The notes under the pieces: generated by a model | Database searches by the model: none | What the model was told of the DNA's origin: nothing | The model's input: the letters and a program-made list of their open reading frames with translations, nothing else | Translations under genes and position numbers: made by a program | Origin: an uncultured Alistipes sp. | GTDB lineage: Bacteria > Bacteroidota > Bacteroidia > Bacteroidales > Rikenellaceae | Length of the DNA stretch: 64,000 nt | Assembly (NCBI GenBank): GCA_947623305.1 | Contig: CANQGQ010000001.1 | Location: 310,001-374,000 of the forward strand | Direction of reading: 5' to 3' | Shown here: positions 9,620 through 57,466 of the stretch, piece by piece | How the letters are laid out: the number at the start of each line of letters is the position of its first letter | Position numbering within the stretch: the stretch's first letter is position 1

Positions 9620-9866
9620 TAATAAAAGGCCCTTTCATAAGGGCCGCGGGCCGAAGCCTCCGCCCGCGGAGGCCCGCCCTTGGCGTCCTCCGCAGTCTTC
9701 GTCCCGCGCCTTTTGAAAGGCGTTCCCGATGCGATAGACCATCATATTGCTTTCGGCGGTCGCAGTCGCTACCGACTACTGTATTCGAAAAAAACGGTCG
9801 GAAGCGAAGAAAGCCTTGAAAAGCAAGGCAACGATCTAACGCATCGGGAAGCCTTTTCAAAAAGGA
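9620..9866. repeat. Composite dispersed intergenic repeat (family 1), copy after GH28
   Basis: Hairpins GGCCCTTTCATAAGGGCC (9629-9646), CGCCTTTTGAAAGGCG (9707-9722) and CCTTTTCAAAAAGG (9852-9865); GGGCCGAAGCCTCCGCCCGCGG module; inverted TTCCCGATGCGATAGACC ... GATCTAACGCATCGGGAA ends. Confidence 0.8.
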
Positions 9867-28448: not shown

Positions 28449-28501
28449 GGGCACTTGCAATCTCTCCGATACCTATATATAGATTTTGCAAAGATACAAA
28501 A

Positions 28502-28653
28502 TTTTTTATTAGCGCGGGAGAGCCTCATTTTGCTTCCAGTGGTCATCTTCGCTTCCGACCGTTTTGTTAATGGAATCGCAAGGTCGGAAAGGAACCGCTT
28601 TCAAAAGCGGCGCATCGGGAAGCCCTTTCAAAAGGGCCCGCGCCAATAAAAAA
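28502..28653. repeat. Family 1 repeat with 17-bp terminal inverted repeats
   Basis: TTTTTTATTAGCGCGGG (28502-28518) and CCCGCGCCAATAAAAAA (28637-28653) match 16/17 as inverted repeats; internal hairpins CCGCTTTCAAAAGCGG and GCCCTTTCAAAAGGGC. Confidence 0.85.
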
Positions 28654-29003: not shown

Positions 29004-29588
29004 TCAACACAAAACCAGATTTTTTTCTTTGATCATTTTGCGCAGGTTGATCAGCGCATAGCGCATCCGGCCCAGCGCCGTGTTGATGCTCACGCCCGTC
29101 TGCTCGGCGATCTCCTTGAAACTCAACCCTGCGAAATAGCGCATCCGCACCACTTCGCGCTGTTCCTCGGGCAGCAACTCGATCAACGACCGGATGTCGC
29201 GTTCGATCTGTTCGCTCACGATGGCATCCTCGATCGTCCGGTCGGCGAACTGCAAGGTACCCAACACGTTGTAACCCGCATCCGATTCGGTCAGCGATTT
29301 GTTCTGACGCTGGTTGCGGAAGTAGTCGATCACCTGATTGTGCGCGATGCGCAACACCCACGAAAGGAATTTTCCGTTATCGCAATAACGGCCTTCGTCG
29401 ATAACCCGCACGGCTTTAATAAATGTTTCCTGGAAAATATCTTCGGCCAGATCCTGATCTTTGACCATCATTCGGATGTAGTTCCGCACGCGGCGGCTGT
29501 GGCGCTCGATGAGCTGGGATATGGCGTTCCGATCGCCCGATCGGTACTGATGGAGCAGCGCCGAGTCATTCAATACTTGCACGTTCAT
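29004..29588 (-). CDS. RNA polymerase sigma-70 family (ECF-type) sigma factor
   Basis: VRNYIRMMVKDQDLAEDIFQETFIKAV (region 2) and LPEEQREVVRMRYFAGLSFKEIAEQTGVSINTALGRMRYALINLRK (region 4). Confidence 0.93.
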   Translation of the reverse strand: MNVQVLNDSALLHQYRSGDRNAISQLIERHSRRVRNYIRMMVKDQDLAEDIFQETFIKAVRVIDEGRYCDNGKFLSWVLRIAHNQVIDYFRNQRQNKSLTESDAGYNVLGTLQFADRTIEDAIVSEQIERDIRSLIELLPEEQREVVRMRYFAGLSFKEIAEQTGVSINTALGRMRYALINLRKMIKEKNLVLC

Positions 29589-29780
29589 ACTCTTTCCTCC
29601 TTGAGTGGTTGTTCAGAGTAGAATTTTTCCCGATAGGCAATCCGTTTTAATGGTGTTCGATCATTGGTTTACGGGAACAAGATACGAACTTTTTCCCGAA
29701 GTTCCAAATTCCCCTCTGCATGGCCGGTTCCGTCCGACCGTCGAATAACCATGCCTGATTTTTGCAAGAACCGTACCGAT

Positions 29781-29972
29781 TTTTTATTCGCGCGGGAGAG
29801 CCTTATCTTTCTTTCGACGGTCGGCAGCGAAAAAAGTCTTAATAAGCATATGCAGGTTCCACCGCATAAGGAACGCCTTTCAAAAGGCGCGGGTTGCACC
29901 TTTTTCAAAAAAACGGCAGGAAGCGAAGAAAGCCTTGCCAAGCAAAACAAGGCTCTCCCGCACGAATAAAAA
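29781..29972. repeat. Family 1 repeat, 192-bp MITE-like copy with 24-bp terminal inverted repeats
   Basis: TTTTTATTCGCGCGGGAGAGCCTT (29781-29804) versus AAGGCTCTCCCGCACGAATAAAAA (29949-29972), 23/24 inverted match. Confidence 0.87.
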
Positions 29973-29989
29973 TTCGTATCTTTGACTTC

Positions 29990-30060
29990 GTCGAAGATAC
30001 TTTCGCTCGGCATAATCAAGCTATCGCTTGCTTCTGCACTCGACTTTTCGTATCTTTGCA
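29990..30060 (+). promoter_or_regulatory. Promoter-associated repeat plus -7 element (TATCTTTGC) upstream of GH2
   Basis: cgtcgaagatactttcgctcggcataatcaagctatcgcttgcttctgcactcgacttttcgTATCTTTGC; inverted relative of 37557-37615. Confidence 0.6.
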
Positions 30061-30081: not shown

Positions 30082-32106
30082 ATGAAACGATACCTTGTTC
30101 TTTTGTTGTCGCTGATCGGTTGCCTGACGGCGCAAAGCCGCGAGGTAATCCCGCTCAACGAGGGATGGCGCTTCTATTACCAGTCCGAAAAGAGTTCCGA
30201 TAACGCCCGCACGGTTACGCTGCCCCACAGCTGGAACACCGACCCCACGGCCGGACAGTTTTTCGTCGAAACGACGGGGTGTTACCTCAACGAACTGCAC
30301 GTTCCCGACACCTGGGCCGGACAACGGCTGTTCGTGAAGTTCTACGGAGCGCAAAGCGTCGCCGATTTCTTCGTCAACGGTCATTTCGTCGGTTCGCACA
30401 GCGGCGGCGCAACAGCATTCGTATTCGAAATTACCGACAAGGTACGCTTCGGGGACAACAATTATCTGCTGGTGGCGGTCAACAACAGCGTCCGCAACGA
30501 CGTATTGCCCACTTCGACCGACATCAACCGTTACGGCGGTCTATATCGCGAAGCGGAGTTGATTCTTACTGCACCGACGGCCGTATCGCCGCTTTACCTC
30601 GGCACCGAAGGCGTGCTGGTTCATCCGCAGGAGGTTTCGCCCGAAAAAGCGTCCGGTGAGGTGGAGATTCATTTGACCGCCCTCAAGGAGGAGAATTGCC
30701 AACTGACCCTCGACATCACCGATGCGGCCGGCAAACCGGTTTACACCCATCGGCAGCGGGTTCGCATCGACGACAAACCCGTCGTCGTTCCCTTTGCGGT
30801 GGAGCGTCCCCGCCTGTGGAGCCCCGCGAATCCGGCGCTTTACACCGTCGCGGTAACGTTGGCCCAAGCGGACGGCAACATCTGCGACCGCACCGAAGTC
30901 CGCACGGGCTTTCGGGCCATCGACGTTACACCGGCGGGCGGCCTCGCCATCAACGGCGAGAGAATCGCCGTGCACGGGGTTACGCTCTACCACGACAGCG
31001 CCTTGTCGGGCGGTACCCCGACCGCCCAGGACATGGATGCCGATTTGCGTCAGTTGGAGGATTTGGGGGCCAATGCACTCCGCTCGGCCGTGATGCCGCA
31101 TGCGCAATATCTGTACGACCGCTGCGACGAAAAAGGGTTGTTGGTCTGGATTGATGTTCCGTTGCACCGCGCTTTTCTGAGCGACGTGGCCTATTATCCC
31201 ACGGTGCAATTCGAACGCAACGGGCTGCAACAGCTGCGCGAAATCGTCGCCCAGCATATCAATCATCCCTCGGTGGCGATGTGGGGAATCTTCTCGCGGC
31301 TGTGGATGCGCGGCGACAATCCGGTGCGTTATCTGCGCGAGCTACATGCGACGGCCCGCCGGCTCGATCCGTCGCGTCCGACGGTGGCGTGCAGCGACCA
31401 GGACGGCGAGGTCAATTTCATTACCGATCTGATCGTCTGGCGGCAGGATGTCGGTTGGAGCAAGGGGACGCCCGATGATCTGACTGTCTGGCGCGACCAA
31501 ATGCAGCGCGACTGGTCGCATCTGCGGTCGGCGATCGCCTACGGCGGTTCGGGCATCCCGGGCCACCGCGAACAGCCCAACCGGCTCGTACCCGATCCCA
31601 ATTGCATGCCCGAGGAACGGCAAACCCGCTTCCACGAGGAGTACAGCCGCAACCTGCAAAACGATTCGCTCTTCTGGGGCGTATGGATCGACAATCTGTT
31701 CGATTACGGATCGACACGCTACCCCTACGGGGTCGACGGCAAAGGGTTGGTTACGTTCGACCGGCGCACCTGCAAGGACGCCTACTATCTCTATCGGGCG
31801 ATGTGGAACCCGCGCACGCCGACGCTGCATCTGACGGGTCGGCATACCTCGCTGCGCTCCGACGACCGGCAGGCGTTCCGCATCTATTCGTCTGCGGGGA
31901 CACCCACGCTGCGGATCGGAGCCGATACGGTGGCGGTTCGGGAATATGCACGGTGCCAATACCAGTCTGATTCAGTTACGCTGCCTCAGGGACGGGTGGT
32001 CGTACGGGCTTCGGCAGGCGATCTGCGCGACAGCGTCATTCTGCGGATCGACAACGCGACAGCACCGAAACAGCGTCCGGGCCTTCTGCGAACAGGAGGT
32101 CGATGA
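30082..32106 (+). CDS. Glycoside hydrolase family 2 (beta-galactosidase-like)
   Basis: VIPLNEGWRFYYQSEKSSDNARTVTLPHSWNTDP; GCYLNELHVPDTWAGQRLFVKFYGAQSVADFFVNGHFVGSHSGG; TIM barrel with NALRSAVMPHAQYLYDRCDEKGLLVWIDVPL. Confidence 0.92.
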   Translation: MKRYLVLLLSLIGCLTAQSREVIPLNEGWRFYYQSEKSSDNARTVTLPHSWNTDPTAGQFFVETTGCYLNELHVPDTWAGQRLFVKFYGAQSVADFFVNGHFVGSHSGGATAFVFEITDKVRFGDNNYLLVAVNNSVRNDVLPTSTDINRYGGLYREAELILTAPTAVSPLYLGTEGVLVHPQEVSPEKASGEVEIHLTALKEENCQLTLDITDAAGKPVYTHRQRVRIDDKPVVVPFAVERPRLWSPANPALYTVAVTLAQADGNICDRTEVRTGFRAIDVTPAGGLAINGERIAVHGVTLYHDSALSGGTPTAQDMDADLRQLEDLGANALRSAVMPHAQYLYDRCDEKGLLVWIDVPLHRAFLSDVAYYPTVQFERNGLQQLREIVAQHINHPSVAMWGIFSRLWMRGDNPVRYLRELHATARRLDPSRPTVACSDQDGEVNFITDLIVWRQDVGWSKGTPDDLTVWRDQMQRDWSHLRSAIAYGGSGIPGHREQPNRLVPDPNCMPEERQTRFHEEYSRNLQNDSLFWGVWIDNLFDYGSTRYPYGVDGKGLVTFDRRTCKDAYYLYRAMWNPRTPTLHLTGRHTSLRSDDRQAFRIYSSAGTPTLRIGADTVAVREYARCQYQSDSVTLPQGRVVVRASAGDLRDSVILRIDNATAPKQRPGLLRTGGR

Positions 32107-47204: not shown

Positions 47205-47227
47205 TCGTCCCGTCTGTCAAGCGGGAA

Positions 47228-47280
47228 ATGTGGAAAGATTTGACTGATTGCAAACCACAATAAAAAATCGCTAAAACAGC
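47228..47280 (+). ncRNA. SAM-II (metA motif) riboswitch candidate upstream of metK
   Basis: TGTGG-aaAGATTTGA-CTGATT-GCAAA-CCACA-ataaaAAT-CGCTAAAA-CAG: P1 TGTGG/CCACA, conserved-like GATTTGA, TTGCAA and GCTAAAA, and pseudoknot pairing CTG/CAG with ATT/AAT. Confidence 0.72.
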
Positions 47281-47406
47281 CCTTTTTATTCATCGTCAGC
47301 CGATTTTTCCCCATTTTTATTAACTAACCGAGCGATTCCGCACATTTCGTGGACTTTTCAAATCATGCCCGAAAGCGTGCGTATCGCATGAAAAAATTAA
47401 TAAAAA

Positions 47407-50493: not shown

Positions 50494-50603
50494 CGATCCG
50501 ATTCGTGCAAAGCTCCGGAACATTCGATGGGTTGCCGCATTTCGTCGCGGCAACCCGATTATTTAGGAAATTATCTATTTCAGGCTTGCAAAATTGCAGC
50601 GCG

Positions 50604-50709
50604 TTTTTTATTAAATGATACGCCTCTTTTAAAAGCGGCCCGTTTAACGGGCTTCCCTATGCGGTGGAAGGTCCAGTGTTTGGCAAGGCTTTCTTCGCTG
50701 CCGACCCTT
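50604..50709. repeat. Family 1 repeat downstream of the FadL-like gene
   Basis: TTTTTTATTAAATG boundary, hairpin GCCCGTTTAACGGGC, TTCCCTATGCGGTGGA, core GGCTTTCTTCGCTGCCGACCC. Confidence 0.75.
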
Positions 50710-50766
50710 ATATTGGGAGCAAAAAAAGCCTTAGCATTGAGCACCGCCATCAAACGAGAGGATAAA

Positions 50767-50812
50767 CGAAACGGGGGCCGTCCGACAATAAGTCGGACGG
50801 CCCCCCGTTTCG
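50767..50812. terminator. Strong hairpin terminator (FKBP gene and/or FadL-like gene)
   Basis: cgaaacgggggccgtccgac-aataa-gtcggacggccccccgtttcg. Confidence 0.85.
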
Positions 50813-56381: not shown

Positions 56382-56403
56382 GTAACTATTCCTATTTTCC
56401 ACA

Positions 56404-56511
56404 GAATCAAGTCGGCAAATGTATTTACATGGCCGACGGTCGTGCCGCTCGCGGCTTTGCCGCGTTTACAAATTTGACCCACCCCTAAACCCCCGCCTTG
56501 GCGGGGGCTTC
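56404..56511. repeat. Dispersed repeat family 2, copy B
   Basis: GAATCAAGTCGGCAAATG...GACGGTCGTGCCGCTCGCGGCTTTGCCGCGTTTACAAATTTGACCCACCCCTAAACCCCCGCCTTGGCGGGGGCTTC. Confidence 0.75.
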
Positions 56512-56538
56512 AAAAAGCCCTACACCGTGTTTAAGTAA

Positions 56539-57096: not shown

Positions 57097-57190
57097 AGAC
57101 TAATTATTATAATAAGGGGGCGTCGAACGACGCACTTCGCTCGCAAATATAGCCTTTATTTCCGAAAGTGGCGGTTATTGCATAGGGAAG

Positions 57191-57466
57191 GGCTGGCAGC
57201 GAAGAAAGCGATAAAAAGCGTCGAAACGCGCTACCGCATCGGGAACTGCTTTTAAAAGCAGCGGGGCGAAGACTGCGGAGTGAACGCCGATAGGCGGGCC
57301 TCCGCGGGCGGAGGCTTCGGCCCGCGGCCCTTATAAAAGGGCCTTATTAGCGCGGTAGACTGTTTTCGTTCTTTCAGCAGTTATCTTCGCTACCAACCCT
57401 TTCCAAAAACGGTCGGAAGCGAAGAAAGCGATCGAAAGCGAAATAAGAGTCTCACGCGCTAATAAA
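57191..57466. repeat. Largest composite of repeat family 1 (two units plus the GGGCCGAAGCCTCCGCC module)
   Basis: GGCAGCGAAGAAAGCG core, CTGCTTTTAAAAGCAG, inverted GGCGGGCCTCCGCGGGCGGAGGCTTCGGCCCGC, GGCCCTTATAAAAGGGCC, then a 118-bp long hairpin TTATTAGCGCGGTAGACT ... AGTCTCACGCGCTAATAA. Confidence 0.82.

Follow-up and report, generated by a model that had tools for sequence, protein, structure and literature searches.

The window considered here is a 64,000-nt stretch of DNA from an uncultured Alistipes sp. The region between an ECF sigma-factor gene and a GH2 glycoside hydrolase gene carries two 24-bp inverted repeats (29781-29804 and 29949-29972), which match at 23 of 24 positions. The arms stretch imperfectly to 29777-29813 and 29940-29976, giving 37 nt with 86% complementarity in a repeat search. 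No other pair of 24-mers with at most one mismatch and a span of at most 300 bp is present in the window, and five Markov-1 random sequences contained no inverted-repeat pair of that quality. A preliminary description of this DNA had reported the repeats, and its positions and mismatch count are exact; its placement of the region between the two genes is likewise borne out, both neighbours being supported by Pfam. The features of the region are as follows.

29004-29588, minus strand: ECF sigma factor (Pfam)
29777-29822, minus strand: unit 1, truncated T-type, made of the 3' half of the core and GCGCGAATAAAAA; the left 'terminal inverted repeat' (core profile match)
29817-29889, plus strand: unit 2, H-type, with the core at 29817-29866 followed by GCATAAGGAA and a hairpin (core profile, E = 4.9e-10)
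29874-29889, plus strand: hairpin of unit 2, CGCCTTTCAAAAGGCG, CGCCT-TTCAAA-AGGCG (sequence, orthologue and covariation over 32 distinct hairpins)
29913-29972, plus strand: unit 3, T-type, with the core at 29913-29961 followed by CGAATAAAAA; the right 'terminal inverted repeat' (core profile, E = 2.2e-10)
29977-29984, plus strand: TATCTTTG, which fits the Bacteroidetes -7 motif TAnnTTTG and lies immediately 3' of unit 3 (sequence)
30082-32106, plus strand: GH2 glycoside hydrolase (Pfam)

A second TAnnTTTG match upstream of GH2 is located at 30051-30058. The interval 29985-30050 is occupied by a further repeated stretch, CTTCGTCGAAGATACTTTCGCTCGGCATAATCAAGCT..., which lies beside TATCTTTG boxes at several promoters, also at C4:88976 and C6:35221. 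The earlier statement that the region has no ORF holds loosely: open frames do cross it, but nothing hints at coding. Since the units of orthologous sites change residues freely, a coding role is not suggested, and a candidate coding frame (GSEESxxKxxNxLPxR), with codon-phase information of 1.17/1.13/0.93, was rejected on the same variation. Between 29700 and 30100, no Rfam covariance model matched at E<=1. Elsewhere in the window, a SAM-II riboswitch was recognized at 47224-47284 (67.7 bits).

The 192 bp are best read, with a probability of about 0.72, as a composite, assembled by chance, in which a dispersed, non-coding, REP-like repeat unit is present three times, and not as a transposon with terminal inverted repeats. 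Their order is a T-type unit (reverse, truncated), an H-type unit (forward) and a T-type unit (forward), so that each 'terminal inverted repeat' is the end of a different unit, the two units lying in opposite orientation. Each unit consists of an ungapped core of about 50 bp, starting around GGCAGCGAAGA and reading ACGGTC-GGMAGCGAAGA..., and one of two tails. The H tail comprises GCATnrGGAA and a 16-bp hairpin of the form N5-TTYAAA-N5' with a 5-bp stem; the T tail is GCTAATAAAA, which in many cases continues into a TAnnTTTG promoter box. Unit 1 matches the core profile at 29821-29792 over columns 21-50 (E = 0.014), and its counterpart in the sister genome G041 has a full-length core. Unit 2 has copies of 90-91% identity at C3:9347 and C6:78274 in this genome (blastn), and unit 3 is 94% identical to its G041 orthologue. 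The 16-mer GGAAGCGAAGAAAGCC at 29919-29934, previously proposed as a core shared with other copies, indeed recurs: allowing up to three mismatches, the window contains 10 occurrences where 1.0 would be expected.

A blastn search of the region against the whole genome returned 56 places, in which only the locus itself was matched at full length and the rest were pieces. The suggested whole-genome check thus upheld dispersal of the pieces and failed to yield a repeated full-length element. A sequence-only core model, with 150 candidates scored per genome, arrived at a minimum of 100 units for this genome and of 145 for G041 (a rabbit-gut sister species), and at 24 for G042, the first two counts being lower bounds because of the number of candidates scored. 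Core profile hits numbered 32 in 212 kb of this genome, 50 in 240 kb of G041 and 7 in 119 kb of G042, with none in reversed-sequence controls. With these copy numbers, and with occupancy that differs in relatives, the description of a dispersed, non-autonomous REP-like repeat stands. Matches were found in six of 151 genomes of the genus, namely this genome, G066, G146, G117 (10 copies) and two with a single copy each; G066, a rabbit MAG, is counted here as G041 because the match coordinates are identical, and G146 as G042. In a pattern scan of GTDB, matches were almost confined to CANQDE01, an uncultured Alistipes MAG from rabbit.

The units are nearly all intergenic, 28 of 32 lying outside conservation-supported genes; gene positions were taken from conservation-based calls, as long-ORF calls gave spurious ORFs containing units. 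Units may stand alone, head to tail or inverted, and are mingled with GC-rich palindromes and terminator-like hairpins. Mutual information within the core revealed neither a run of complementary pairs nor base-pair covariation, and an RNA structure of the core was rejected. Further copies in the window include the following.

9793-9866, plus strand: H-type unit whose loop contains the TGA that ends an outer-membrane-barrel-like gene (C-terminus GVGYPF)
28489-28568, minus strand: T-type unit across the sigma factor from the region, ending at TGTATCTTTG (blastn and core profile)
50661-50709, minus strand: H-type unit at a position of gene-order breaks in G042 and in G041
57189-57457, mixed strands: three clustered units (+, -, +) with an intervening GC-rich palindromic module

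A TAnnTTTG box lies within 35 nt of 10 of the 18 T-type units that face a gene start and of none of the 65 H-type units. H ends face gene 3' ends at a ratio of 44:21, T ends at 16:18 and the background at 199:183 (H versus T, Fisher P = 0.054). This placement relative to promoters and gene ends is suggestive, short of proof of function.

The stem of the H tail varies while its pairing is kept. Among 97 hairpins chosen by their position after the core, pairing not being a criterion, 83 have all five pairs intact, with eight different stems, and the conserved neighbour of the hairpin is GGAA. Over 32 distinct hairpin sequences all five pairs have changed on both sides and 96.9% of cells pair, giving a covariation score of 0.655 compared with 0.175 for shuffled and at most 0.094 for slid alignments. 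The G041 orthologue of the unit 2 hairpin is CCCCG-TTCAAA-CGGGG, and when species are compared at orthologous gene ends whose gene-side flanks align as far as the hairpin, most show different stems. Such covariation is predicted alike by selection on the folding of RNA or DNA and by mutational homogenization of palindromes, and the data do not separate them.

The loops can also close open frames: 15 of 81 hairpin loops hold the exact stop of an open frame of at least 130 codons on the opposite strand. A 36:1 strand count of stops near hairpins does not constitute an orientation test and was set aside. The family shows that REP-like repeats can give stop codons and alter protein C-termini, as on one mlaF-like gene, which ends in RRPV* in this genome, RAF* in G041 and G042 and RRF* in G115, with a hairpin at its end in all four; in G117 the gene ends in AAGLNSRS*, and relatives in which the unit is missing have varied native ends. 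At a GH43-like gene (G041 segment 110290-110640 versus this genome's segment 85620-85690), the G041 hairpin arm CCACG (CCACG/CGTGG) reads as the inverse of the final codons of the gene, and this genome has these codons without a unit. From the sequences at this site, an origin of the arm as a fold-back copy of host DNA is possible, with ambiguous polarity.

The sister genome is about 93% identical in nucleotide sequence and the family is limited to one clade, which makes it possible to follow unit gain, loss, inversion and stem change at individual sites. For GH2, the orthologue in G041 is 97% identical and that in G042 92%. In G041 the same intergenic region contains a reverse full-length T unit, a GC-rich palindromic module, a reverse H unit and a forward T unit; the H unit (unit 2) is thus forward in the window and reverse in G041, and the GC-rich module is missing from the window. 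In G042 the region has no units and contains 1.3 kb of other DNA instead. Between the sigma factor and GH2, G042 alone has a 200-codon open frame (L061 556-1158), whose product presumably resembles YdeI-type proteins.

The two arms differ from each other at one of 24 positions within the window and from their own orthologues at four positions each. On these 24 columns, the identity of the arms here is probably the result of homogenization within the lineage. Template switching between inverted repeats homogenizes arms and inverts spacers, as described in yeast for short spacers (PMC8604942). For 24 units there is a unit at the syntenic G041 site; seven are at least 85% identical to it and 11 are closer to a unit elsewhere. 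A 69-bp tract (GCGGCAGC...ACGGGG) that ends exactly at the hairpin occurs twice in one segment of this genome, at 2.0 kb and in inverted orientation at 5.7 kb; the flanks of the two sites differ and the G041 segment has the tract at the first site only. This is one clear copying event with exact ends over a distance of 3.7 kb. Units can be copied with exact ends, and deletions and inversions between units reshape the sites. Some apparent unit swaps turn out to be deletions between adjacent units, as at the mlaF-like gene, beside which the G041 array includes one more unit. The apparent empty sites at 126897 (versus G041) and 85649 of this genome's segments can be read as deletions, and the polarity of insertion and loss is uncertain at most sites.

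Gene order in G042 breaks at three unit-holding sites (window 28500-28649 and 50564-50808, and G000:C1:396930-397462), and an inversion of about 10 kb in G041 has one end at window 50560-50719. Units are present in this genome at all three G042 breaks and at one G041 break; since no hybrid units are seen at the junctions, a causal role of the repeats in these breaks is only suggestive.

The preliminary description had called the region MITE-like and inferred a non-autonomous mobile or REP-like element, possibly mobilized in trans. Taken strictly, a MITE would be a discrete, non-autonomous transposon of 192 bp with 24-bp terminal inverted repeats, moved in trans by an IS transposase encoded in this genome. 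Like MITEs, the region is short and non-coding, with no long ORF and with apparent inverted repeats at its ends that are near-perfect and unique in the window, and a few DDE_Tnp_1 genes (four matches) are present in the genome. The MITE reading is nevertheless largely refuted by the single full-length copy among the 56 places, and we consider it very improbable. Each presumed terminal repeat is the end of a separate unit that occurs alone elsewhere, and the middle unit is inverted, with extra DNA in the interior, in the sister species. No target-site duplication was detected for the unit family at the indel sites compared among the three genomes (this genome, G041 and G042), nor a clean empty site with defined ends for the whole composite against G041 or G042. 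A second dispersed element of about 160-190 bp, with TIR-like ends TGTACCAACG/CGTTGGTACA and a strong GC-rich hairpin CCCCCGCCnnGGCGGGGG, looks quite different. It was seen in the G041 segment opposite positions 99747, 115166, 147170 and 152129 of this genome's segment, with a remnant near window 56400-56520, and at one site it shows an 8-bp duplication, ACAAATTT, compared with an empty site in this genome. Judged from these sequence features, the second element is likely to be a true MITE, and the detection of its duplication indicates that the method is able to recognize one.

An invertible promoter, in which a site-specific recombinase acts on the 24-bp repeats, was also considered. Inverted-repeat promoter switches are established in Bacteroidales, and the unit between the arms is oppositely oriented in the sister species. 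Both TAnnTTTG boxes (29977-29984 and 30051-30058), however, lie outside the arms, no recombinase gene was identified adjoining the region, and the difference between species is not a simple flip because the interior varies in length and content; we regard this explanation as extremely improbable. The locus serves as a warning that near-perfect intergenic inverted repeats derived from two separate units can pass for a MITE or a phase-variable promoter. Retention as a selected regulatory element, with the H hairpins as mRNA 3'-end structures at stop codons and the T ends promoter-proximal, kept for their RNA function, is distinctly unlikely. It would account for the compensatory changes in the stem, the orientation of H ends towards gene 3' ends, the -7 box of the T ends and the terminator-like hairpins in the GC-rich modules; but homogenization of palindromes would likewise keep the arms paired, the bias between H and T is weak, the H hairpin has no U tract, and the unit is absent from most of the genus, also at the same gene.

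What spreads the units has been approached through candidate enzymes. Mobilization in trans by a RAYT, as earlier proposed, does not agree with the searches: Y1_Tnp was found in none of five genomes (this genome and four repeat-carrying relatives) at E<=0.1, with positive control genomes, and TnpB in none of three genomes, so both were rejected as the mobilizer in the genomes tested. The family thereby poses the question of how a REP-like repeat spreads in genomes without a RAYT. Host processes could suffice, with template switching, microhomology-mediated and unequal recombination and ectopic gene conversion acting without any dedicated enzyme. The lack of an HUH transposase and of target-site duplications among the searches made, the head-to-tail abutting units, and the deletions and fusions whose junctions fall at repeats or microhomology (for example L007 of this genome versus L047 of G041, and the site at 126897) are in keeping with this, as is the known action of template switching on arms and spacers. 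We hold this explanation possible but on balance doubtful: at least 100 dispersed copies and an inverted, exact-ended copy 3.7 kb away are difficult to account for unless a specific process is at work, and most related species are without such repeats, yet presumably have the same host machinery.

Under the composite reading, new copies would arise when the folded hairpin end is recognized as single-stranded DNA, in the manner of REPs, by a dedicated enzyme, a step for which we would accept somewhat less than even odds. Between insertions, template switching and recombination of inverted or direct units would homogenize arms, flip spacers and delete intervening DNA, and the 23/24 identity of the arms would reflect such homogenization and not the requirement of a transposase. 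More speculatively, the units may represent a new class of mobile stem-loop of about 66 bp, consisting of a non-palindromic core and a GGAA-tagged hairpin whose stem is free to vary if paired. Exact-ended copies would be made by an enzyme that has no relationship to the known REP transposases and that prefers gene ends and promoter edges. We consider this proposal rather unlikely; if true, such a class would rewrite C-termini and terminators genome-wide.

The units are best filed as a new, clade-limited REP/BIME-like family without a known transposase. In the broad sense of REP the family belongs, being a high-copy intergenic unit (at least 100 copies) with a covarying hairpin. It resembles the GTAG REPs and REPINs associated with RAYT in having roughly 100 or more mostly intergenic copies, a terminal hairpin with an adjoining unpaired tag, units that cluster and occur inverted, and stop codons given to flanking ORFs, as reported for GTAG REPs (PMC3733652). 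It differs from them in its tag (GGAA, not GTAG), in a unit of about 66 bp with a non-palindromic core of about 50 bp, and in the lack of a RAYT in the genomes tested here. CGTC-tagged REPs, which have been reported from Bacteroidetes among other phyla (PMC3733652), share with our units this phylum and the want of a known dedicated transposase; the H hairpin, however, carries GGAA in place of a CGTC tag, has a 5-bp stem and a 6-nt loop compared with loops of 4-5 nt, and is attached to a large conserved core. Enterobacterial BIMEs are intergenic mosaics of several short motifs in alternating orientation (PMC2817692). Alternating-orientation clusters with other motifs are likewise seen at the window site and at several others, whereas the motifs are unrelated, with no REP core, and the T-type units run into promoter boxes.
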